Part shown: positions 17,340 to 29,688 of the stretch, in pieces
Layout: the number at the start of each line of letters is the position of its first letter
How positions within the stretch are numbered: position 1 is the stretch's first letter
DNA from: Kribbella solani
GTDB taxonomy: Bacteria; Actinomycetota; Actinomycetes; Propionibacteriales; Kribbellaceae
DNA: 64,000 nt
Direction of reading: 5' to 3'
Assembly: GCF_014205295.1 (NCBI RefSeq)
Contig: NZ_JACHNF010000001.1
Coordinates: 3,100,001 to 3,164,000, forward strand
Notes under the pieces: model-generated
What the model was told of the DNA's origin: nothing
Databases searched by the model: none
The model's input: the letters and a program-made list of their open reading frames with translations, nothing else
Translations under genes and position numbers: made by a program

Positions 17340-19232
17340 TCAGGCCGGCGCCACCACGATCACGTTGTCGTCCGGCCCCAAGGTGAGTGGTTCGAGTTTC
17401 GGCGGGTTCAGCACAACGCCGTACCCGGGAGCGAGGTCACTGCGGCTGTGCACCCGGTAGCCGATCGCACTGTGCCCCTGGCGGCGGGCCGACTCGATCA
17501 CGGTCGCGAAGTTCGCCTCCATCGCCGGTACGAGGTAGTCGCCGGCGGACTTGAGATAGATCTCGGAACCCGCGGGGTCGAACAAGTCACCGAACACGGC
17601 TTGCAGGTGCCGGTTCTCCGCCAGTTGCGTCAGCAGCAGACTGATCAGCTTGCTGCTGACGATGAAGTCGTCGGCCTTGGTCACCTGGGCAACCTGCCGG
17701 TTGTTGTCGTCGTACATCTCGGTCACGATCGAGAACGGGTCGCCGAGCCGTACCTCGATGTCGCGCAGGTGGAGCAGCGTCACCAGGGTCCGGTCGTCGG
17801 CGTGATCCGGATCGATCCGGTCGTCCGCGAGTACGACCACATGCTGGTACATACCGAGTCCGAGCGCCTCGAGCGACGCCCTGGTGGTGGGCTCGCAGGC
17901 CTTGTAGCCGACGGTGAGATTCGCCCTCGCGGCCTGCACCGCGGCCGTCGGCTCGACCGGCGCGGCGATGTCCAGCCGCGAACCTGGCTCCACGAACCGG
18001 TCCAGCAGATCGATGATCTTCGTGGCGCGCGCGTTCCAGCCGATCAGCAGCGTACGGTCCGGCGCCGGTGGCCGGTCGGTGGGCGCGGCGATCGCGGCCT
18101 CGACGATCGGCGCCGGGCTGTCCGCGATCTTGATCAGCAGGTCGTCCTCGGCGAGTACGACGAGTTTGTCACCGGTCTCGATCGGCGTGTCCGTCGACGG
18201 GTTCAGCAGCATCTGCCCGGGCTTGTGCACGCCGACCGGAACACCCAGCGAGTACGCGTTCAGTGCTTCGCCGTACGACGAACCCGCGAGCCGCGCGGCC
18301 GGCGCCAGGTAGAACTCGCTGCCCGCGAAGTCCAGTAGATCGATACACACCGCGGACAGGCCGGCCTGCCGGTGCGACTGCACGACCAGCCGAACCATGA
18401 TGTCGTCGGCATCGACCAGCAGCGCGTCGTCGCCGGCCGCCAGCCGGGCCGCGGCGAGGTTGTCCGAGTCCAGCACCGCGGCGACCACATGCGGCCTGGT
18501 CTTGTCCCACTGCCGGTTGTTCAGCAACAGCAGGGTTTTGATGACGTCGATGTCGGCCTCGGGGCCGGTCGGCGGCAGCACCAGGATCGCGCGGGCGGTG
18601 TCCGGACTGACCAGCTCCAGGTCCGCCCGCTTCAGCGGACTCCCCGACCGGCAGATCACCCGGATACTCCCCGCCTCCGGAATCCGCGCCCGGATCCTAT
18701 CCTCCATGTCGACCTTGTCCTGGTCCGCCAGTACGACGACGCAGGCCCGGCGGCGATGCCCCTGGTTGGCCCGGGCGAGTTCGCCGATCACGGTGAACAC
18801 CTCGTCCGACCAGCCCAGCACGATCGTGTGGCCGGTCTCGATCAGCTGTGACTTTCCCTTACGCAGCTGGCTGATCCGATTGTCCAGACCGGTTGTCAGG
18901 ACACCGATCAGGGCGCTGACGATGAAGATGCCGCCGACGGTCACGGTGAGCATCAGCCCGAGGAACACCGGACGGCCGGTGTCGCCGCCCATCGTTCCGG
19001 GGTCGAGCGTACGCAGCAGGCTCATCCACGCGACCCCACCCCAACCGCCGCTCGCCTCGGTGTCGGAGTTGGTGAGTACGACGACCAGCACCGTCACCAC
19101 CGCGATCAGACCGACCGACGCGAGCCCGAGCCAGCCGATCAGCGCCGGCGTACCGCGGTCCATCGTCCCGTCGAACCAGTACCGCAATCGCTGCCGCCAC
19201 CTGATCCGCCGTACCGCCGCCACGCCAGCCAC
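17340..19232 (-). CDS. CASTOR/POLLUX-type ion channel protein
   Basis: A 630-residue membrane protein. Two membrane segments (about 31-55 and 88-114) flank a pore-loop-like region. Two large cytoplasmic RCK/TrkA-N-like Rossmann domains follow (HTIVLGWSDEVFTVIGEL near 134-151 and TLLIGWNARATKIIDLL near 380). This is the layout of CASTOR/POLLUX proteins, cation channels known from plants with bacterial homologues. Its ion is unknown; K+ or Ca2+ is plausible from the family. A CASTOR/POLLUX N-terminus without a long leader fits the ATG at 19232. It is divergent from tatA. Confidence 0.88.
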   Translation of the reverse strand: MAGVAAVRRIRWRQRLRYWFDGTMDRGTPALIGWLGLASVGLIAVVTVLVVVLTNSDTEASGGWGGVAWMSLLRTLDPGTMGGDTGRPVFLGLMLTVTVGGIFIVSALIGVLTTGLDNRISQLRKGKSQLIETGHTIVLGWSDEVFTVIGELARANQGHRRRACVVVLADQDKVDMEDRIRARIPEAGSIRVICRSGSPLKRADLELVSPDTARAILVLPPTGPEADIDVIKTLLLLNNRQWDKTRPHVVAAVLDSDNLAAARLAAGDDALLVDADDIMVRLVVQSHRQAGLSAVCIDLLDFAGSEFYLAPAARLAGSSYGEALNAYSLGVPVGVHKPGQMLLNPSTDTPIETGDKLVVLAEDDLLIKIADSPAPIVEAAIAAPTDRPPAPDRTLLIGWNARATKIIDLLDRFVEPGSRLDIAAPVEPTAAVQAARANLTVGYKACEPTTRASLEALGLGMYQHVVVLADDRIDPDHADDRTLVTLLHLRDIEVRLGDPFSIVTEMYDDNNRQVAQVTKADDFIVSSKLISLLLTQLAENRHLQAVFGDLFDPAGSEIYLKSAGDYLVPAMEANFATVIESARRQGHSAIGYRVHSRSDLAPGYGVVLNPPKLEPLTLGPDDNVIVVAPA

Positions 19233-19874: not shown

Positions 19875-20897
19875 CTAGCTCTCGCGGTGGTCGGCGGGTG
19901 GCTGTTGTGCCTCTGGCTGGTCGGTGGGTGGTTGCTGGGCTTCGCGGGCGCGTTTGCGGCGTTTGCCTTCGTGCATGGCGGCTACCCGAGCGACAGGAAT
20001 GGCTCGCCCCTCCTCCAGCAGATCTTCGGGGATCGCCTGTGGCGCGGGTAGCTGATCGGCCCACCGGTCGGCCGCCCCGAGCAACCCCGGTGCCGTACGG
20101 ACCGTGAAGTCCCGCGGCGTCACGTTCTCCAGCTCCTCCCACCCAACCGGAAACGACACCGTCGTACCCGGCCGGACCCGCGGACTGTACGCCGCGACAA
20201 CCGTCGCACCACCAGCCCGCGTCGAGTCGACGAACACCTTCCCGTGCCGATCCGCCTTGATGTACGCGGTAGTGGCGACCGACGGATCGAGCTTCTCGGC
20301 CCGCGCCGCGATCGCCCGGGTGGCAGCCGCGGCATCCTCGATCCTCACATTGTCAACAATCGGCACGATCACGTGCACCCCTTTCGCGCCGCTCGTCTTG
20401 ACCCCGCCGCTCAGCCCGGCCTCGGTCAGCGCCTCCCGCACCAGCAACGCCGCCCGCACCGTCATCGCGAACGTCTCGCCTTCCGGCGGGTCCAGGTCGA
20501 GCACCAGGTGCGTGACCCGGTCCCACCGGGCGGCGCGCATCAGCGTCGGGTGGTACTCGACCGCGCGCTGATTCGCGAACCAGAGCAGCGTTCGCCGGTC
20601 GTCGCACAACGCGTACGCCACCTCACGCTTGGACGCCTCCGCCCAAACCGGCACGGTCTTCACCCACTCCGGCGTGTACTTGGGAACGTTCTTCTGCATG
20701 AACGCGGGCTGCCCCGGACGAATCCGCACCACCGACAACGGCCGTCCGCACAACTCCGGCAGGATCCGCTCGTGCACGGCATCCAGATAGTCGACCAGAT
20801 CACGCTTGGTCGCCTCAGCCCCGTCGAACAACGGCTGATCCAGATTGGTAAGCCCAACCCCATCCCGCGTCTCATCCGGCTTCCGGCTACCCGGCAC
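19875..20897 (-). CDS. ligD: LigD-type polymerase/primase domain protein
   Basis: A 340-residue stand-alone polymerase domain of the archaeo-eukaryotic primase superfamily, as found in LigD of bacterial non-homologous end joining. Catalytic LDLDPP (two metal-binding Asp), SGAKGVHV and DSTRAGGATVVAAYSPR are all present. A basic, Gln/Pro-rich tail follows from about residue 300. Neither ligase nor Ku genes are visible nearby. It follows the PLP-enzyme gene with a gap of 17 bp, so it may be on the same transcript, although its function is unrelated. Confidence 0.9.
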   Translation of the reverse strand: MPGSRKPDETRDGVGLTNLDQPLFDGAEATKRDLVDYLDAVHERILPELCGRPLSVVRIRPGQPAFMQKNVPKYTPEWVKTVPVWAEASKREVAYALCDDRRTLLWFANQRAVEYHPTLMRAARWDRVTHLVLDLDPPEGETFAMTVRAALLVREALTEAGLSGGVKTSGAKGVHVIVPIVDNVRIEDAAAATRAIAARAEKLDPSVATTAYIKADRHGKVFVDSTRAGGATVVAAYSPRVRPGTTVSFPVGWEELENVTPRDFTVRTAPGLLGAADRWADQLPAPQAIPEDLLEEGRAIPVARVAAMHEGKRRKRAREAQQPPTDQPEAQQPPADHRES

Positions 20898-20914: not shown

Positions 20915-22165
20915 CTACTGACCCTCCCCCGACCTTAGAAGACGTACCAGGGCATCGAGAACCGTCTTTTCCTCGCCGGGCTGGAGGGTTTGGGGGTTGA
21001 GGGCGATCGCGTCGGGCGGCAGGTTGAAGGTGCCGACGGAGATTCGTGGGTTGCCGTCCCAGAGGGCCTGGACCACCTCGTCCCGGTCGCGGGTCAGGCG
21101 GAGTACGGCGCGGCTGTGCGGCTGGCCGGCTTCACTTGGATAGCCGCGCTCGACCACCGCACCGGGCAACCCCTGCAGGCCGGCGATCCAATCGTCGACA
21201 ATCCGCTCGTAGCCGGCCAGCAGTTCGTCCTCGTTCTGGGCGAGGGTCCACTCGACCGCGGCGAGCAACCCGAGCAGTTCCTCCTTCCCGACCTTCATCC
21301 CGCGTCCGAGCTCGTGCTTCGGCGAGGTGTGCACACGCAGATTGTCAACAATCGCCTGCTTGCCCAGCACCAAGCCACTGGCTTGCGGACCGCGCAGGCC
21401 TTTCCCGCCGCTGACGATCACGGCGTCCGCGCCGAGGTCCCGGGTGAACCGCCACAGGCTCGCGACCGGCGGGATCTGAGCCGCCGCGTCCACGATCACC
21501 GGTACGCCGGCCTGGCGAGCGCATTGCACGACCTCTTCCACGCTCAATGCACCCGCTGCGTAGTGCGCGCCCGCGAACCACAGAACGCAGGCAGGCTTGC
21601 GATCGAGCGCGGCGCGGAGCTCGTCAACCGATGGTCCGATCTCGACGATGCGAGCGCCGATGAAGCGAGCCGAGTAGTCGTAACCATTGCGTTGGCTGGC
21701 GAACATGACGATCTCGGCGTCGGTCGGGAACGCCTGCGATTCGGTCGTGACGCAGGCGGCAACCGTCAGCGTGATGGCAGCCGCCGCCCCCGAGGTCACG
21801 TACGCCGACTCATTGTGCGTCAGCTGGGCGAGGCGCTCACTCACCCGCAGGTTCAGCTCCGGCAGGTCGACGAACTGCGCCGCCGCGTCGTTCATCGCCT
21901 TGATCACCGGCGGCGGCATCAGCGAGCCACCGAGAACGGTGACCGTCGCGTTGGCATTGATGACCGGGCGTACGCCGAGCAACGCGTTCGATGGTTCCCG
22001 ACCGGTTCGCGGCCCCGAACGAACTGGAGGCTCCGGGCGGATGCGTGGCTCCGAACGAGCTGGAGGCTCCGGGCGGATGCGTGGCTCCGAACGAGCTGGA
22101 CGCTCCGGATGGATGCGTGGTTCCAGACGGGCTGGTGGGTCCGGAGGTGCTGAGGGCTCTGTCAT
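20915..22165 (-). CDS. SelA-like PLP-dependent enzyme
   Basis: A 416-residue fold-type I pyridoxal-phosphate enzyme resembling SelA and D-glucosaminate-6-phosphate ammonia-lyase types. Core features are the nucleotide-free glycine loop TSGAAAAITL, IVDAAAQ with the cofactor-binding Asp, and the Schiff-base Lys in VSGGKGLRGP. The first 60 residues are a repeat of about 12 residues (PPARSEPRIRPE) that is absent from the fold and probably disordered. ATG 22165 overlaps the stop of the preceding esterase-like gene (ATGA), so the two are translationally coupled. Linked to sugar-type ABC transport and esterases, it may eliminate or isomerise an amino or hydroxy sugar acid. Substrate not known. Confidence 0.82.
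   Translation of the reverse strand: MTEPSAPPDPPARLEPRIHPERPARSEPRIRPEPPARSEPRIRPEPPVRSGPRTGREPSNALLGVRPVINANATVTVLGGSLMPPPVIKAMNDAAAQFVDLPELNLRVSERLAQLTHNESAYVTSGAAAAITLTVAACVTTESQAFPTDAEIVMFASQRNGYDYSARFIGARIVEIGPSVDELRAALDRKPACVLWFAGAHYAAGALSVEEVVQCARQAGVPVIVDAAAQIPPVASLWRFTRDLGADAVIVSGGKGLRGPQASGLVLGKQAIVDNLRVHTSPKHELGRGMKVGKEELLGLLAAVEWTLAQNEDELLAGYERIVDDWIAGLQGLPGAVVERGYPSEAGQPHSRAVLRLTRDRDEVVQALWDGNPRISVGTFNLPPDAIALNPQTLQPGEEKTVLDALVRLLRSGEGQ
22017..22124. repeat. 36-bp in-frame tandem repeat in the PLP-enzyme gene
   Basis: Three 36-bp units (22017, 22053, 22089) and a decayed fourth encode the Pro/Arg/Glu-rich 12-residue repeat at the N-terminus of the SelA-like enzyme. The first two units differ at one base, which suggests recent expansion. 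Confidence 0.85.
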
Positions 22166-23007
22166 GCGATGAACTTTGACATCGCGGGTACGCCGGATCG
22201 TTCTGCCAGCCAGGCGTCGAGGGAATCGTTGTCGGTGCCGTCCAGATGTGTGACGTCGTACACCTCCGGGTCGGGCAGCGCCGACAGCAGCGGGCCGCAC
22301 CAGTCGGTGTCATCGGTGGCCAACAGCGTTCGGGCCGCGATCGCCGGTGCGTGCCGGACCGGGTCGAAGTACGACAACGTGGTGGCGAGTGCGTCTTCGG
22401 ACGAGCCTGCGCGGAGGTGATCGTTGAGTTCCTCCAGCGGATAGAGGCATGACTTCAGCCGTGCCTCCATCGCGCGGTAGAACAGCAGGTCCGTCACCCG
22501 TACCGAGGTGAATCCAGGCCGCCGTGCCGCGGTCAGGATCGCCAGATCGTCCCCGCTGACCGCAACCCGCTCAGGGTCAACCTCAGACAACCCGCGCAGG
22601 AACTCCGCGGCTCGTAGACAATCCGACGCGATGCCGCGGTAGATGTACGTCGCCGGATCGTCGATGTCCATTGTCAACAATCCTGGGTACTTGGCCGCGA
22701 ACCCTTCGTCCGCCAGCCGCTGACCGCGGTGCATCAGACTCAGGACCACGTACCTGCCGCGGTCGTTCGGGTGCGGGATGTTGTTGACACTTCCGTACCG
22801 CGGGGTGATCAGCAGCGCGGGGAACGGTCCGTCGCCGGCCGGGATGCTCAGGTTCCCGTACACGCGGTACGGGCCGGTGCTGGTGAGGCGCAAGGTGTAG
22901 AACGTTGCCTCGTCGGTCGTCCGTGCCGGCACCCGGTCCAGCACCGGCCGGCCGGGGATCGCCGCGAGTTCCTGATCCACCTCGGCCCAGTAGGTCTCGA
23001 AGTCCAT
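22162..23007 (-). CDS. AXE1-like esterase paralogue lacking the nucleophile
   Basis: A 281-residue protein with the overall layout of the acetylxylan esterase/cephalosporin-C deacetylase family (ALLITPRYGS, YPGLLTMDIDDPATYIYRGIASDCLRAAEFL). Where the active paralogue next door has GSSQGG, this one reads VSGDDLA, so the GxSxGG nucleophile is missing. The C-terminal catalytic His context is also altered. It may be an inactive partner of the neighbouring esterase, whose family forms oligomers, or a binding protein. ATG 23007 lies 5 bp after the esterase stop. The 3' end overlaps the PLP-enzyme start. Confidence 0.8.
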   Translation of the reverse strand: MDFETYWAEVDQELAAIPGRPVLDRVPARTTDEATFYTLRLTSTGPYRVYGNLSIPAGDGPFPALLITPRYGSVNNIPHPNDRGRYVVLSLMHRGQRLADEGFAAKYPGLLTMDIDDPATYIYRGIASDCLRAAEFLRGLSEVDPERVAVSGDDLAILTAARRPGFTSVRVTDLLFYRAMEARLKSCLYPLEELNDHLRAGSSEDALATTLSYFDPVRHAPAIAARTLLATDDTDWCGPLLSALPDPEVYDVTHLDGTDNDSLDAWLAERSGVPAMSKFIA

Positions 23008-23012
23008 TCGGT

Positions 23013-23939
23013 TCACCTTTCCGGGGTGAGGTGTTCGGCGAAGAAGTCCTCGACGACGCGCATCACGTCGGGCAGACCGGCGTGGTGGGCGCAGTGCGGG
23101 TACCTGCGCAGCGTCTTCTCGCAGGTCAGCGCTCGGTGCAAGGCGAAGCCGGTCTCCGGTGGGCAGACATCGTCTTCCATCCCGACATACAGCAAGGTCG
23201 GCGCTTGTACCTTCGGCGCGAAGTTCAGCCCGTCGTAGTACGCGACCGTCTCGCGGACCCGGTCCACGTCTTTGGGGTGAATCCGCAGGTACTCGTTGAT
23301 CTCTTCGTACGGGTACGAGCGGGTGAGCGTCGGCGCGGTCATGATGCCGCACAGGTACGGGGCGCCGGCCGCGACGCAGCGGATCGCGTCGGGCATCAGC
23401 GCCGCGGTGGAGATGCCGAGGCCGCCGCCCTGGCTGGAGCCCTGCAAGCCGATCCGCTGATTGTCGACATCCGGACGATCCAGCAGCACTTCGACCGCGC
23501 GGACGACGTCGAGGTAGAAGCCGCGGTAGCCGTAGGTGTTCGGGTCGACGATGTTGTGGGTCAGGAGGCCGGGATAACCCGGGTTGAAGACACTGTTCGA
23601 GCGCAGCTTGCCGCGCGGCGCGACGGCGAGCGCGGCGTACCCGAGCTCGGACCACTCCTTCGGGATCGTCGGCTCGGAGATGTACCCCGGAATCGTGACC
23701 AGGGCCGGGTGTGGGCCGGGGCGGTTGCGCGGGGTTGTGTACCAGCCGGCGATCCGCAGGCCGCCGTAGCTGGTGTATTGCAGATCGTAGACAATCACCG
23801 TCTCGGTGGAGAGTGCCGGCTGCTCGGTCAGCACGGGGTCCAGCGGATAGGAAGCACAGTCCGCCAGGCCGGCGGCCCAGAACTCGTCGAAATCAGCTGG
23901 TCGCTCGACCTCGACTGCAAAATTCTCTATGTCCCGCAA
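23013..23939 (-). CDS. Acetylxylan esterase / cephalosporin-C deacetylase family protein
   Basis: A 308-residue cytoplasmic alpha/beta hydrolase of the AXE1 family, which removes acetyl groups from sugars and xylo-oligosaccharides. It shows the family's NIVDPNTYGYRG segment, nucleophile elbow GLQGSSQGGG, acid-loop region YVGMEDDVCPP and catalytic His (PHCAHHAG). The best start is TTG at 23939, preceded by GGAAGG. No signal peptide is present, so its substrate must be imported, which matches the ABC transporter genes just upstream. Confidence 0.9.
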   Translation of the reverse strand: MRDIENFAVEVERPADFDEFWAAGLADCASYPLDPVLTEQPALSTETVIVYDLQYTSYGGLRIAGWYTTPRNRPGPHPALVTIPGYISEPTIPKEWSELGYAALAVAPRGKLRSNSVFNPGYPGLLTHNIVDPNTYGYRGFYLDVVRAVEVLLDRPDVDNQRIGLQGSSQGGGLGISTAALMPDAIRCVAAGAPYLCGIMTAPTLTRSYPYEEINEYLRIHPKDVDRVRETVAYYDGLNFAPKVQAPTLLYVGMEDDVCPPETGFALHRALTCEKTLRRYPHCAHHAGLPDVMRVVEDFFAEHLTPER

Positions 23940-24032: not shown

Positions 24033-25262
24033 TCATCGGGGGGATTGCAGGGCGGTGCCGGTGGTGGGGTGGAAGAGGTGCAGGCGGTTGGGGTTGAAGG
24101 CGACGTGGACGGTGCTGTCGTGGCCGAGGCGGAAGGGGGTGGGGACTCGGGCGCGGATCAGTTCGCCTTCGATGCGGACGGTGACCAGGACGTCGGGGCC
24201 GAGGGGTTCGGTGACGAAGACCTTGCCGGGGTGGTGACCGTCGGCCGGCGTGGTGGACAACGTGATGTCCTCCGGCCGGATACCGAGCACCACCTGACGG
24301 GAAGAACCGGAAACCACCGCGGACTCGGCCGCCGTGGATCCGGCAACCGTGTCGGCCACTGCGGATTCGGCCGCCATGAAGGCGGGGCGGGCGGAGGTGG
24401 AGCCGGCGGATGTGGGGTCGGCGGATGTGGGGTCGGCGGAGGTGGGGCCGGCGGGGTGGGTTGGTGGGTGGAGGGGTTGGGTCAGGGCCGGGGAGCGGAA
24501 GTGGAGGGTGCTGCCCTCGTGGACGAGGTCGCCGGTGAGGAAGTTCATCGGGGGTGAGCCCATGAAGGAGGCTACGAAGCGGTTCGCGGGGCGTTCGTAG
24601 ATTTCTTCGGGGGTCGCGCATTGCTGGATCACGCCGTCGCGCATGACGGCGATCCGGTCGGACATGGTCATTGCCTCGACCTGGTCGTGGGTGACGTAGA
24701 TGAAGGTGCGGGCCACGTCGACGTGCAGCCGTTTGATCTCGGCCCGCATCAGGACGCGGAGCTGGGCGTCCAGGTTCGACAGCGGTTCGTCCAGCAGGTA
24801 GGCGCCGGCGTCGCGGACGATCGCCCGGCCGAGGGCGACGCGTTGCCGCTGGCCGCCGGACAGTTCGCGGGGTTTGCGGTCCAGCAGGTCCTCGATGTCC
24901 AGCGTTCGCGCGGCCTGCCGGACCTGCTCCTCGATCGTTGCCTTCGGCACCCGCATCATCTTGAGCGCGAAGCCGATGTTCTGCCGGACCGTCCGGTGCG
25001 GGTAGAGCGCGTAGCTCTGGAACACCATCGACACGTCCCGCTTGTTCGCCGGCAGCCAGCTGACCGGTTTGCCGTCGAAGAAGATGTTCCCCGCGCTGGC
25101 CCGTTCCAGCCCGCAGATCATTCGTAGGGTTGTCGACTTTCCACAACCGGAGGGGCCGACCAGGGTGAGGAATTCGCGGTCCTCGACGGTCAGGTTCAGA
25201 TTGTCGACAACGGTCTTGCCGCCGAACGACTTGCTGACATTCTCCAAACGCACTTCAGCCAT
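24033..25262 (-). CDS. Sugar ABC transporter ATP-binding protein (MsmK/UgpC type)
   Basis: A 409-residue ATPase that powers uptake. Walker A GPSGCGKST (about 37-45), Q-loop FQSYALYP, signature LSGGQRQRVALGRA and Walker B AYLLDEPLSNLD are intact. The C-terminal regulatory OB-fold region ends with LGIRPEDI and following strands. It is interrupted by an unusual Pro/Thr/Ser/Ala-rich insertion of about 55 residues (near 265-320) encoded by 15-bp repeats. The gene follows the second permease after 4 bp. ATPases of this class sometimes serve several sugar transporters. Confidence 0.93.
   Translation of the reverse strand: MAEVRLENVSKSFGGKTVVDNLNLTVEDREFLTLVGPSGCGKSTTLRMICGLERASAGNIFFDGKPVSWLPANKRDVSMVFQSYALYPHRTVRQNIGFALKMMRVPKATIEEQVRQAARTLDIEDLLDRKPRELSGGQRQRVALGRAIVRDAGAYLLDEPLSNLDAQLRVLMRAEIKRLHVDVARTFIYVTHDQVEAMTMSDRIAVMRDGVIQQCATPEEIYERPANRFVASFMGSPPMNFLTGDLVHEGSTLHFRSPALTQPLHPPTHPAGPTSADPTSADPTSAGSTSARPAFMAAESAVADTVAGSTAAESAVVSGSSRQVVLGIRPEDITLSTTPADGHHPGKVFVTEPLGPDVLVTVRIEGELIRARVPTPFRLGHDSTVHVAFNPNRLHLFHPTTGTALQSPR
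24390..24449. repeat. 15-bp in-frame repeat in the ATPase gene
   Basis: Four 15-bp units close to GGCGGATGTGGGGTC (24390, 24405, 24420, 24435), with a degenerate fifth at 24450. They encode PTSAD-like pentapeptides on the minus strand within the inserted linker of the ABC ATPase. Confidence 0.85.
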
Positions 25263-25266
25263 CGCC

Positions 25267-26160
25267 TCAGCCCTTCACTGATCCGGCTGCCATGCCCTGG
25301 ACCAGCTTGCGCTGGAAGAGCAGAGCGAGTACCAGGGGTGGGACCACCGCGAGCACACCGGCCGCGGCCATCACGGTGAACTGGGTGTTGAAATCGGTGG
25401 CGAAATTGGCCGCCACCACCGGAATCGTCTTCGCCGCCTTCGAACTGGTCAGGAACAACGCGAACATGAACTCGTTCCACGCGGTCATGAACGCGAACAC
25501 CGCGGCCGCCACCAGTCCCGGCGCGGCCACCGGCAGGAAAACCGTCCACATCGTCCGGAACCAGCCGCACCGGTCCACCCGGGCGGCCTCCTCCAGTTCG
25601 CGCGGCACCGACCGGAAGAAGTCCTTCAGAATCCAGATCGTGATCGGCAACGCGAACGTCGTGTACGAAAGGATCAGCGCCAGGTACGTGTCCAGCAACC
25701 CGAACGATCGCATCAGCAAATAGAACGGAATGATGATCGCGATCCCCGGCACCATCCGGGTGAGCAGGTACAGCACGAGCAGCACCTGGCTCCCGCGGAA
25801 CTTCAGCCGGGAGAACGAGTACGCCGCGAACGTGGCCAGCACCAGGTTCAGCACGGCGGTCGCCGTCGCCACGATCAGGCTGTTCCGCAACGAGTACGGC
25901 GTTTCCGAAACTGCCCGTCCACCGACCAGTTGCTGCGCATCGTCCGGGCGTACGAACCCGAGGTAGTTCTCCAGGGTCGGATGCACCGGAATCCAGTGCG
26001 GCGGCACCGAGATCGCATCCACCTCGTGCATGAAACTCATCGCGACAATCCAGTAGAACGGCAGCACCAGGTACAACCCGAACACCACCGCCAGTACGTA
26101 AAGCGCGATCTTCTTCCACGGAATCCGGTACCGGAGCGGAACTTTCACGGCGGTACTCAT
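25267..26160 (-). CDS. Carbohydrate ABC transporter permease (MalG type)
   Basis: A 297-residue inner-membrane permease with six predicted membrane segments. The EAA cytoplasmic-loop motif is seen as ELEEAARVDRCGWFRTMWTV. This is the second transmembrane subunit, homologous to MalG. Its ATG overlaps the stop codon of the first permease (ATGA at 26157-26160). Confidence 0.93.
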   Translation of the reverse strand: MSTAVKVPLRYRIPWKKIALYVLAVVFGLYLVLPFYWIVAMSFMHEVDAISVPPHWIPVHPTLENYLGFVRPDDAQQLVGGRAVSETPYSLRNSLIVATATAVLNLVLATFAAYSFSRLKFRGSQVLLVLYLLTRMVPGIAIIIPFYLLMRSFGLLDTYLALILSYTTFALPITIWILKDFFRSVPRELEEAARVDRCGWFRTMWTVFLPVAAPGLVAAAVFAFMTAWNEFMFALFLTSSKAAKTIPVVAANFATDFNTQFTVMAAAGVLAVVPPLVLALLFQRKLVQGMAAGSVKG

Positions 26161-27062
26161 GCCTCGAAGTTTCCTTTCCGGTAGAGGAGCCCGATATAGC
26201 CGACCGAGATCAGCAGCGTGATCGCGGTGATCACCCAGGCGTACGCGCTGCCGAGACCGAAGTCGGTGAAGGTCAGGACGGTTTGTACGTCGAGCAGCGC
26301 GATCGTGGTCGTCGCGTCACCGGGTCCGCCGCCGGTGAGTACGTAGATGGTGTCGAAGGCGCGGAACGCGTTCATCGTCTCCAGGATCAGCACGATCAGG
26401 AGCGGATGCAGGAGCCACGGCACGGTGACCTGGGTGAAGCGCCGCCAGGCACCCGCCCGGTCGACCGTCGCCGCGTCGTACAACTCTGATGGGATTGTCG
26501 ACAATCCGGCGAGCAGGATGATGACCGAGAACGGCAGCGTGTTCCACACCTGCGCCAGCGCGGTGAAGAGGAACGCGCCGGTGCCCGACGTCAGCCAGGC
26601 GTGATAGTTCTCGATCAGACCGAGCTGTTGCAGCAGGCCGTTCAACGCACCTGTCTTCGCGTCGAAGATCGTCCGCCACATCAGGCCGTTCACTACCCCA
26701 GGCATTACCCAGGGCAACAAAGCGAGACTCAGCAACAATCCGCGACCACGGAACCGTTCGTTCAGCACCAGCGCCAGGATCAGCGCGAGTACGACGGTCA
26801 GCCCGAGCACCACGAGTACGAACAGCGCCGACACCTTCAACGCGGACAGAAACGCGTCGTCGCCGAGCAATGCCTTGTAGTTGTCGAACCCGATGAACCG
26901 CCTGGCCCGCGGGCGTTTCAGGTTGTGCTTCTGCAGGCTGACGTAGAAGGAGTACCCGATCGGATACGCGACCAGCAGGGCGATCACCACCATCGCCGGG
27001 GCGTTCAGCGCCCAGGCCTTGGCGGTGTCGCCCAGCGGGCGGCGTTCGGTGAAAGCGACCAT
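26157..27062 (-). CDS. Carbohydrate ABC transporter permease (MalF type)
   Basis: A 301-residue inner-membrane permease with six predicted membrane segments. The EAA loop is seen as ELYDAATVDRAGAWRRFTQV, and the GGGPGDAT stretch typical of MalF-like sugar permeases is present. ATG 27062 follows the solute-binding protein's stop by 2 bp. The frame extends further upstream, but that part overlaps the preceding gene. It carries one of the perfect ATTGTCGACAAT sites (26494-26505). Confidence 0.93.
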   Translation of the reverse strand: MVAFTERRPLGDTAKAWALNAPAMVVIALLVAYPIGYSFYVSLQKHNLKRPRARRFIGFDNYKALLGDDAFLSALKVSALFVLVVLGLTVVLALILALVLNERFRGRGLLLSLALLPWVMPGVVNGLMWRTIFDAKTGALNGLLQQLGLIENYHAWLTSGTGAFLFTALAQVWNTLPFSVIILLAGLSTIPSELYDAATVDRAGAWRRFTQVTVPWLLHPLLIVLILETMNAFRAFDTIYVLTGGGPGDATTTIALLDVQTVLTFTDFGLGSAYAWVITAITLLISVGYIGLLYRKGNFEA

Positions 27063-27064
27063 GC

Positions 27065-28390
27065 TCAGGAGTACTTCTTCTTCAACGTCCCGGCGGTCCG
27101 CGCGAGCGAGTCGACCGCGGCGGACGGCTGCGTCTGGTTGCTCAGCACCCCTTGCACGACCTTGTGCATCTCGGTCTCGAATTCGGTATACCAAGGCACC
27201 CCGAGCACGTTCCGCGGTTTCGCGATCTCGGCCAGGTGCGCGTACACGGCCGGATCGGCGAACTTCTTCAGCGCCGCGACGATCTCCGGATCGGTCGCCA
27301 TCGACTTGTACGCGAACCCGAGACCGCGCTGCAGGAACCAGAACCGCGCGGTGTACGGCTTCTTGTCCGCGCCGAGCCCACCCAGGTACGTCAGCAGTTT
27401 GACGGCGTTGTCCTTGACCTCGGTGTCCTTGGCCAGCGCGTACAGCCGGGTGTTGCTGACCGTGCCGTGCACCTTGCCGTCCAGGCTCGGCATCAGCGCC
27501 ATCTTCATCTTCCCGGCTGCCTTCGACTTGGCCGGATCGTTGTAGTCACGCAGGGCGTACCGGGCGCCGATCGTGAACGCGTACCGGTTCGACTTCATCG
27601 CGTTGTCGATCGGCACCGGGAGCAACTGCAGCGACGCCGGGTCGATCACCTTGGTGGTGCTCGCGGCATGCTGCAACCAGGTGAACACGTCCTTGGTCAC
27701 GTGATCGCTGGTGTTCATGATCGGCGCCTGCTGGTCGTCGAACATGCTGCCGCCACTTCCGTATACCAAAGCCCACACCCAGGCCCACCAGGTGTCGGAC
27801 AGCTGGGCAGGCAGACCGATCGGGTACTGCAGAAGGCCGGCGTTCTTGATCTTGACGGCCTGGGCCTCGAGTTCGTCCAAGCTGGCCGGCGGTTTGCTGA
27901 TCCCGGCCTTGGCAAGGATTTCGGCGTTGTAAACAAGGCAGTTCGAGTCGGTGTAGTACGGCAGCCCGTAGCGCTTTCCGCCGTACGTCATCGCCTCCGC
28001 GTTGCCCGGGTAGATCGCGTCGTACACCGCGTCGACGCCAGGCAGGCCGTCGAGCGGTTGCAGGTAGTCGCCCTCGACCCAGGCCGCGAGCGAGTCGTCG
28101 TACACGTACAGCGCGTCCGGGCCGCCACCACCGGTGAACTCGGCAACGACCTTCTGGACGTACTGCGCGCTCGTGATCGGTGTGTAGTCGACCTTGATGT
28201 TGCTGGTCTTGGTGAAGTTGTCGAGGTTCTGCTGGACCAGCGCGGCTTCGTAGTCCCAGCCTTCGAACTTCACGCTGCCGTCGCCGGCACCACCACCTCC
28301 GGACTTGCCGTTCGAACAGGCGGACAGCAGGGCAGGGGTGGTCAGGCCGAGACCGGCTAACTTGAGGATGTTCCGGCGGGTGAGCTCCAT
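27065..28390 (-). CDS. Sugar-type extracellular solute-binding lipoprotein
   Basis: A 441-residue family-1 solute-binding protein that captures the substrate for the two permeases. The N-terminus has a twin-arginine-like motif (TRRNILKLAG) and a lipobox LLSAC at about residues 21-25. Export by Tat and lipid anchoring are therefore likely. The mature part has typical family-1 segments (GGGGPDALYVYD and GLPYYTDSNCLVYN). ATG 28390 has a GGAGG site and overlaps the regulator gene's 3' end by 34 nt. The substrate is probably an oligosaccharide or acylated sugar, inferred from the neighbours. Confidence 0.92.
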   Translation of the reverse strand: MELTRRNILKLAGLGLTTPALLSACSNGKSGGGGAGDGSVKFEGWDYEAALVQQNLDNFTKTSNIKVDYTPITSAQYVQKVVAEFTGGGGPDALYVYDDSLAAWVEGDYLQPLDGLPGVDAVYDAIYPGNAEAMTYGGKRYGLPYYTDSNCLVYNAEILAKAGISKPPASLDELEAQAVKIKNAGLLQYPIGLPAQLSDTWWAWVWALVYGSGGSMFDDQQAPIMNTSDHVTKDVFTWLQHAASTTKVIDPASLQLLPVPIDNAMKSNRYAFTIGARYALRDYNDPAKSKAAGKMKMALMPSLDGKVHGTVSNTRLYALAKDTEVKDNAVKLLTYLGGLGADKKPYTARFWFLQRGLGFAYKSMATDPEIVAALKKFADPAVYAHLAEIAKPRNVLGVPWYTEFETEMHKVVQGVLSNQTQPSAAVDSLARTAGTLKKKYS

Positions 28391-29688
28391 GGTTGTGCCT
28401 CCAACGCTTGGGCGATGCGTAGTCGGTACAGGCGCGACGGGCGTCCCTTCGGATGGTGCTGGGCGGTGCCTTCGGCACTCACCAAGCCGCCCGCGTCGAG
28501 GGTGCGGATCAGCCGGCGTCCGCTCTGATCCGTGATGCCGAGATGACCGGCAAGCTCTCCAGGCGAGAGCGTGCGGCCTTGCAGTTCCTGGTCCAGCGCG
28601 GCCAGCCGGGAAACGGTGGTCGCACTCAGACCGACGTACTTCGCCAGCTGTTCGATTTCGTCGCCGTGCTCGCGGTACGAGAACCGCAGCGCCTCGCCGG
28701 CCGGACCCATCGGTCCGATCACGACGCCGCTGTCCTCGAACAGGTACGCGCAAGGTTCGTCGGACAGTTCAGCCCGCGCCGCGGCCTGCTCGGCGAGCAG
28801 CACGCAGTTGCGCGCGGACACGCCGACCCCGAACCCGGCCGAGATCTGTACCCCGAGCGCCGCGGCGGCCTCGGCCAGCGCGGGTACGCCGACCCAGTTC
28901 TGGGTGATGCGCTCGAACAACGCCTTGTGCGCGAACACGACCACCCCGCGGCGCCCGCGGTTCTCGATCCAGGCGCCGGCGAACTCCGGGGTGTTGAGCA
29001 GCTGGTTCATCAGTCCGATCCGGGCGCGTTCCTCGTCCGTGGACTGCGAAATCAGGAAGACCCCGGCGGCGAACCGTTGCGCGCTGGCCCGGTCCGACTC
29101 GATCCGCAACGCGAGCTCGTGCAGCTCGGTCCGGATCGTGGCCGGTACCGGCATCCCGCTGATGATCGGCAGCCGGCCGGCCAGCTGTTCCCGAACCGCG
29201 GCGCGGACGCTGATCACGAAACTGCGCTCGCCGAACCGCCGGTACGCGTCCCGGTGGAACTCGGCGATCTCGTCCACGGTCTGGGTCGGCGCGTACGGCA
29301 GGCAGGCGACCTGGTCCTGGTCGAGGTCCAGCGCGGTCGCGACCGCCTCGACCGCATCGGCCGCGAAGGTGTCGATGCTCACCGGCGTACGCACCCAACC
29401 GCGCTCCTGGGCGCGATAGAGCGCGAGGGTCAGATCGAGCGCCGACGAGCGGATCACGCCCACCGGCAGCCCGGGCGGAAGCAGTTCGCGACTGGCCGTG
29501 TACGGCACCGGGCCGGCCAGGAACCCGTCGAGCCGGGTCGTACTCAGGAACTCGGCGACCCGGTCGCGGATCTCGTCCTCGTGGTCGTAACTGACCCAGG
29601 CGAGATCCACCCCGCCCAAGGTCCGCGCGGCGTCCTGGAACAACTCGTGGTGAGCCGCATGGGTGACGACTCCGATCACGATGCCCAC
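28357..29688 (-). CDS. Transcriptional regulator with GGDEF-like middle domain and winged HTH
   Basis: A 443-residue regulator heading the transporter operon. The N-terminal third looks like a ligand-sensing alpha/beta domain (IGVVTHAAHHELFQDAARTL). The middle has a stretch resembling a degenerate GGDEF/cyclase-type fold (VQISAGFGVGVSARNCVLLAEQA) without the GGDEF signature, so no cyclase activity is expected. The last 100 residues hold helix-turn-helix segments (YVGLSATTVSRLAAL; ELAGHLGITDQSGRRLIRTL). Its 3' end overlaps the solute-binding protein gene. A palindrome 12 bp upstream of the start suggests autoregulation. I am not sure of the family name. Confidence 0.7.
   Translation of the reverse strand: MGIVIGVVTHAAHHELFQDAARTLGGVDLAWVSYDHEDEIRDRVAEFLSTTRLDGFLAGPVPYTASRELLPPGLPVGVIRSSALDLTLALYRAQERGWVRTPVSIDTFAADAVEAVATALDLDQDQVACLPYAPTQTVDEIAEFHRDAYRRFGERSFVISVRAAVREQLAGRLPIISGMPVPATIRTELHELALRIESDRASAQRFAAGVFLISQSTDEERARIGLMNQLLNTPEFAGAWIENRGRRGVVVFAHKALFERITQNWVGVPALAEAAAALGVQISAGFGVGVSARNCVLLAEQAAARAELSDEPCAYLFEDSGVVIGPMGPAGEALRFSYREHGDEIEQLAKYVGLSATTVSRLAALDQELQGRTLSPGELAGHLGITDQSGRRLIRTLDAGGLVSAEGTAQHHPKGRPSRLYRLRIAQALEAQPWSSPAGTSSS

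Follow-up and report, generated by a model that had tools for sequence, protein, structure and literature searches.

An intact CE7-type esterase of Kribbella solani is encoded beside an apparently inactive paralogue that is probably its partner subunit

A 64,000-nucleotide (nt) stretch of the Kribbella solani genome (7.85 Mb; contig NZ_JACHNF010000001.1, positions 3,100,001 to 3,164,000), here called the window, carries on its minus strand two adjoining genes of the CE7/AXE1 esterase type, which we term A and B. A retains a complete catalytic triad, whereas B appears to have lost it. The closest named relatives at this locus are Kribbella species, and the pair sits in an operon-like array that reads putative regulator, solute-binding protein, two permeases, ATPase, A, B and a pyridoxal phosphate (PLP) enzyme of DgaE/SelA type (Table 1). 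Five bases separate the stop codon of A from the start of B, and the stop codon of B shares four base pairs (ATGA) with the start of the DgaE-like gene. B was listed as an open reading frame (ORF) of 497 amino acids (aa), the 5' part of which overlies A in a different frame; the methionine aligned with the ATG at 23007 is the first residue in 15 of the 18 genus orthologues extracted, that of K. solani included. Elsewhere in the genome there are two further genes with strong AXE1 matches and a third match that is short and weak.

The first-pass annotation of this DNA had placed two ORFs of AXE1 layout side by side and had noted that a GSSQGG elbow in the first is replaced by VSGDDLA in the second. 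Both observations hold. A scores 220.9 bits and B 64.7 bits against Pfam AXE1 (PF05448), each over the gathering score of 21, the two proteins are 35% identical over 246 aa, and both motifs are found where they had been read.

We compared A and B in 36 aligned rows each, drawn from the window, 20 of 38 named-record loci and 15 loci of a 400-genome survey of one phylum; since L063 and L103 represent a single locus, the distinct pairs number 35. Near-copies were left out (L036-L041, L043, L044, L047, L048, L052, L066), as were loci where the pair is incomplete (L046, L068, L069, L070, L073), the locus L055, where A lies in two frames, loci already present (L104, L110), loci at a contig edge (L107, L111) and the second match of genome G513. 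In the Fodinicola feengrottensis assembly (L055:2267-8962), several operon genes, A among them, are split into pieces, which suggests sequencing errors.

In A, the elbow is of the GxSxG type, and S169, Q170, D256 and H285 are each invariant (36/36). We assigned the catalytic acid to D256 because the neighboring D257 is Asp in only 32 of the 36 rows and the Bacillus subtilis enzyme aligns with D256. A structural model of residues 1-306 matches the CE7 fold along the whole chain (Z 42.1, 2.0 Å over 302 residues to 1l7a_A). From the intact triad we infer that A is catalytically active.

Table 1. Features of the A-B pair and of the genes around it (positions in the window)
Feature	Position	Strand	Remarks
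Gene A, CE7/AXE1-type esterase with intact Ser-Asp-His triad	23013..23939	minus	308 aa, TTG start
A Ser169, nucleophile in GSSQGG	23433..23435	minus	codon; S in 36/36 A rows
A Asp256, catalytic acid	23172..23174	minus	codon; D in 36/36 A rows
A His285, catalytic His	23085..23087	minus	codon; H in 36/36 A rows
A residues 109-140, counterpart of the CE7 beta5-alpha4 (beta-interface) loop	23520..23615	minus	
Gene B, predicted AXE1-fold pseudo-esterase	22162..23007	minus	281 aa, start ATG 23007
B Asp154, sequence-aligned to the nucleophile	22546..22548	minus	codon; D 33, E 2, G 1 of 36 B rows; four-residue deletion follows
B residues 93-125, counterpart of the CE7 beta-interface loop	22633..22731	minus	most conserved stretch of B
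DgaE/SelA-like PLP enzyme, downstream of B	20915..22165	minus	family profile matches
ABC importer ATPase, UgpC/MalK type	24033..25262	minus	
ABC importer permease, GlcU/MalG type	25267..26160	minus	
ABC importer permease, UgpA/MalF type	26157..27080	minus	
Extracellular solute-binding protein, SBP_bac_1	27065..28387	minus	
Putative operon regulator, weak MarR-type match near the C-terminus	28357..29688	minus	conserved with the operon

B is predicted to have the CE7 fold as well. Its AlphaFold2 model has a mean predicted local distance difference test (pLDDT) score of 90.1, and the closest PDB structures to that model are CE7 esterases (Z 30.2, 2.2 Å over 264 residues to 3fyt_L). The alignment of B begins 14 residues later than that of A, and none of the three positions of the triad is conserved. 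The elbow (G152-x-D154) lacks four residues relative to A. The alignment sets residue 154 opposite S169, whereas the predicted strand ends favor residue 153, which is D in 23 rows, N in 8, G in 2, A in 2 and S in 1, so that Ser occurs there in a single row. No column between 231 and 238 is Asp in half of the rows or more. His254 is present in 24 of the 36 rows, and three rows are without the His region altogether. The stretch from the last strand to the last helix covers residues 281-290 in the predicted structure of A but 252-255 in that of B, a shortening of the His loop. As His254 is confined to 24 rows and the acid columns drift, the carboxylate that replaces the nucleophile of B stands without a conserved His and acid.

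Judged from these alignments, B is not a conserved-triad enzyme, and the case that it is catalytically dead is well supported. The apparent inactivity noted in the first pass from the loss of the Ser is thereby extended to the acid and the His. A triad elsewhere in the protein, named there as the observation that would overturn this reading, was not seen by column conservation and predicted secondary structure, geometry being no part of the comparison. B illustrates that an AXE1 match over the Pfam cut-off may come from a protein that is no esterase.

Haloalkane dehalogenases and epoxide hydrolases use a carboxylate nucleophile at the elbow, and B could likewise be a separate enzyme with changed chemistry, in which Asp154 would serve as nucleophile in a triad completed by His254 and by a beta7-loop Asp. 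The residue at the nucleophile position is indeed acidic in 35 of 36 rows, and the window's B offers Asp at 232, 233 and 235 in addition to its His254. A working triad, however, would be expected to be as invariant as that of A. Instead, His254 is absent from 12 of the 36 rows, including the near relative L047 (Arg), position 154 is Gly once and Glu twice, and the drifting acid columns and the three rows lacking the His region leave parts of the proposed triad without a fixed place. We therefore regard a changed chemistry as improbable.

The drift of the catalytic loops and the deletions seen in some lineages might also be read as the decay of a pseudogene. This we rejected on the ratio of nonsynonymous to synonymous substitution rates (dN/dS) and on the distribution of B, which leave such a reading hardly any probability. 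B is under purifying selection: with 133 of 136 pairs usable for each gene, 17 Kribbella and Nonomuraea sequences give it a median dN/dS of 0.197, compared with 0.154 for A, so that B evolves faster than A yet is clearly constrained. Its reading frame is open in the 18 congeneric loci extracted, and columns remain invariant over two phyla: R94, R97, D100, R124, D129, R132, E193 and S73 are each conserved in 36 of 36 rows. A quick likelihood tree built on 114 rows places the 36 A sequences and the 36 B sequences each on one side of a branch, with support of 96 and 100, respectively, in the Shimodaira-Hasegawa-like approximate likelihood ratio test (SH-aLRT), and splits A and B together from 42 other AXE1 proteins (SH-aLRT 88). 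This topology fits one AXE1 duplication predating the spread of the pair over Actinomycetota and Chloroflexota. The distance matrices of A and B correlate with r 0.81, a value reached in 0 of 2000 shuffles; common ancestry of the hosts would by itself push r upward.

B is found with A almost wherever it occurs. Within the genus, 18 of 38 genomes carry B (K. solani included), and A adjoins it in all 18. The 17 orthologues among the 37 other genomes are 64-87% identical to the window's B, and in the remaining 20 genomes the best B match reaches at most 44.1 bits or there is none. Each of these 17 orthologues adjoins A, and the arrangement is thus more than a chance one. (In Kribbella jiaozuonensis, what is apparently the same A-B region appears on two scaffolds, L040 and L041, with identical scores and may be an assembly duplicate.) Beyond the genus, B is distributed over Actinomycetota and Chloroflexota. 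Of the 38 named-record loci, 34 have A immediately before B, or 34 of the 35 whose contig extends far enough: at L046, L068 and L070 the contig starts at B, and L069 is the one real exception.

The association also holds when approached from A. A survey of 400 genomes from a single phylum gave 20 A-type matches scoring 410 bits or more, of which 19 adjoin a B-type gene; at L107 that B is cut by the contig end, and the one remaining match, L111, lies at a contig edge. In 297 genomes of another family, all 13 A-type matches adjoin a second, weaker AXE1-type match, the elbow of which was read only where the locus is also among the 38 named-record loci. The second A-type match of G513 was confirmed as a pair. 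Class-wide, among 394 genomes with six candidates scored per genome, K. solani itself gives the sole score at B level (472.4 bits) and the next genome reaches 106.9, so the pair is rare in that sample.

The two genes are also closely packed, lying at most 5 nt apart or overlapping in 29 of 48 pairs, with a largest gap of 380 nt (L120); this count combines the window with sets of 16, 16 and 15 pairs, uses script-chosen starts and includes L063/L103 twice. Other members of the operon are less constant. Of the 38 loci, 31 have a DgaE-like gene after B (31 of 37 if L073, where the contig stops within B, is set aside). The window's importer has no match beside the pair in the congeners L037, L040, L041, L043 and L044. 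It is thus the A-B unit that forms the core of the operon.

A single ORF of 638 residues encodes both A and B in Actinopolymorpha pittospori (L060:7957-9873), with a linker of about 35 residues rich in Ala, Thr and Gly between them. The idea that B is a dedicated partner of A, raised in the first pass as an inactive subunit that could shape or regulate the active one, is well supported at the sequence level by this fusion, by the near-universal co-location and by a conserved interface loop.

That loop is defined by the known CE7 enzymes, which are described as mainly hexamers built as trimers of dimers and equipped with a catalytic triad (PMC6209228). In the same account, a 'beta-interface' on the beta5-alpha4 loop is a key dimer contact, the N-terminus lies at the tunnel entrance, and the active sites of the ring face a narrow tunnel that restricts large substrates (PMC6209228). 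In B, the counterpart of this loop has a mean conservation of 0.77 versus 0.61 overall, and 2 of 249 windows of the protein score as high. The catalytic regions, with borders that we chose, follow the opposite course, the elbow falling from 0.81 in A to 0.67 in B and the acid loop from 0.80 to 0.45. The monomer model gives residues 95-103 of B pLDDT values below 50, which would suit an interface segment; a shallow alignment is another possible cause.

The invariant residues of B, R94 to E193 and S73, could instead form a binding site, and B might act in the same pathway without binding A, as a non-catalytic protein with a ligand-binding or regulatory role. The presence of a putative regulator and an importer in the operon would suit such a role. 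Yet A adjoins B in all but one of the loci with room for it, more constantly than the DgaE-like gene does, several pairs have no importer match alongside, and A and B are fused in one case. We consider this alternative unlikely, although less so than a changed chemistry.

Rather, because a dead copy stays beside A in distant bacteria and has been fused to it once, B is probably the partner subunit of A. We put at roughly 0.7 the probability that A and B make up one hetero-oligomeric esterase of CE7 type, A as its catalytic and B as its non-catalytic subunit. Triad loss, predicted fold, selection, sister-branch position, linkage and fusion form the sequence basis of this reading; beyond these, we infer the A:B complex, its geometry and stoichiometry, its effect on activity and its substrate.

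Several points weigh against a partnership of this kind. The signs of contact between A and B are indirect and all lie at the level of sequence, and co-inheritance and adjacency also fit two proteins acting apart in one pathway. The loop of A is likewise its best conserved (0.86; 3 of 277 windows as high) and is also modeled with low confidence (ten-residue means of 55 and 66). Folding or ligand binding could also explain why this loop is conserved, given its closeness to the active site. The fusion is a single case in one genome, seven other genomes of that family having been examined without an A-type match, and a mutated stop codon or a sequencing error could account for it.

The linkage has its counterexamples too. 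At L069, B has no adjoining A, and an A-type match on another contig of its assembly contains an in-frame stop. Five of the 20 and five of the 13 reverse-test matches come from genomes that B had already brought up, and scoring was limited to 5 to 7 candidates per genome, so these sets are neither independent nor exhaustive. Four A-like matches have no B beside them (L122, 295 bits; L123, 278; L145, 355; L146, 327), nor any B-type ORF in the stretches examined. Of the four, only L122 and L123 were placed in the tree, where they fall among the other AXE1 proteins, and these four matches of 278-355 bits indicate that the partner is tied to the A clade proper and not to all A-like proteins. The tree itself gave long-branch warnings for B_L117, B_L118 and B_L114, which, together with the long stem of B, make its exact root unsure.

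The hetero-oligomer could have arisen as follows. An old duplication of an AXE1 gene would have produced B, which would have lost its triad once and been kept as a partner of A. The two would assemble through the CE7 beta-interface into A:B dimers of a hexamer-like ring. Missing the first ~14 residues of A, and with a shorter His loop and a drifting acid loop, B would line the tunnel without cutting. There it might shape access to the active site of A, stabilize A, activate it conformationally or widen the tunnel.

The known CE7/AXE1 proteins (1ODS, 1L7A, 1VLQ, 3FVR, 6AGQ: acetyl xylan esterases and cephalosporin C deacetylases) share their fold and PF05448 with A and B, the triad with A, and the beta5-alpha4 loop with both. 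B differs from them in the missing triad and N-terminal residues, and A in being accompanied by B almost everywhere. A search of the open-access literature returned no description of a CE7 pseudoenzyme; it did bring up a CE4 paper in which the word 'pseudoenzyme' occurs once. To our knowledge, few bacterial pairs of dead and live metabolic paralogues have so clean a genetic signature.

The closest parallel in function is offered by trypanosomatids, in which S-adenosylmethionine decarboxylase (AdoMetDC) with its prozyme, and deoxyhypusine synthase with a dead paralogue, are described as being activated by heteromer formation (PMC5201418, PMC3663545). Like A and B, these systems combine an active enzyme with a catalytically dead paralogue, and B resembles a prozyme in being such a paralogue, in being under selection and in being co-inherited with A. 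The trypanosomatid systems, however, are eukaryotic, have other folds and form proven complexes, whereas the A-B pair is bacterial, has the alpha/beta-hydrolase fold, is encoded in one operon and is known here from sequence. By analogy with the action of prozyme on AdoMetDC, B may belong to an ancient bacterial CE7 'prozyme' system, co-inherited across Actinomycetota and Chloroflexota, in which A alone would be poorly active and B, present in every A:B dimer by way of the beta-interface, would open the tunnel to bulkier substrates. This extension is tentative, at somewhat less than even odds, and the dependence of A on B that it assumes is a proposal and not a known fact.

The neighboring genes give some indication of the substrate. 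Since a sugar-type ATP-binding cassette (ABC) importer and a DgaE/SelA-like PLP enzyme adjoin the pair, the substrate is perhaps an acylated sugar derivative, maybe of an amino sugar, taken up by that importer. The gene after B matches the profiles of DgaE (D-glucosaminate-6-phosphate ammonia lyase), TIGR01437 and NF047797, at 156.3 and 131.3 bits, far under the curated cut-offs of 385.3 and 600, and is thus a relative and not shown to be a DgaE. Ten neighbors annotated in other lineages included no consistent gene that would name the substrate. They comprise a RidA/YjgF-type gene after the DgaE-like gene in L055; a major facilitator superfamily (MFS) transporter upstream of the fusion in L060, with DUF4432 further off; an amidohydrolase upstream of A in L057; an enolase-superfamily protein further off in L059; and, in L054, a weak GHL10-like match, under its cut-off, upstream of A, with another amidohydrolase further off.

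The 5' end of the DgaE-like gene contains a 36-bp tandem repeat (22011-22144; 3.7 copies, 87% matches) that encodes a Pro/Arg-rich N-terminal extension of the protein. The extension was found in none of the ten relatives, from a set of 15, whose N-termini were compared; at locus L044, a different, 'VDPQAG'-type repeat occupies the same site. At the other end of the operon, the regulator-like protein is nearly without a family match (MarR_2, 25.1 bits, under cut-off). Its homologue heads the operon in Kribbella, Nonomuraea, Fodinicola, Saccharopolyspora, Kutzneria, Crossiella, Actinosynnema and Pseudonocardia loci, and it may represent an undescribed regulator family. Immediately after the operon lies a stand-alone LigD primase-polymerase domain protein (19875-20897), a homologue of which is found at the same place in 12 of 13 Kribbella loci, with no match in four Nonomuraea or more distant loci. 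Further along, a 630-aa protein (17340-19232) carries a Castor/Pollux-type ion channel domain (PF06241, 85.6 bits).

The natural A-B pair should be easy to express and lets one ask directly why a dead subunit should be kept for so long. If the proposed hetero-oligomer is true, it would show how the limit that the CE7 tunnel sets on substrates can change.

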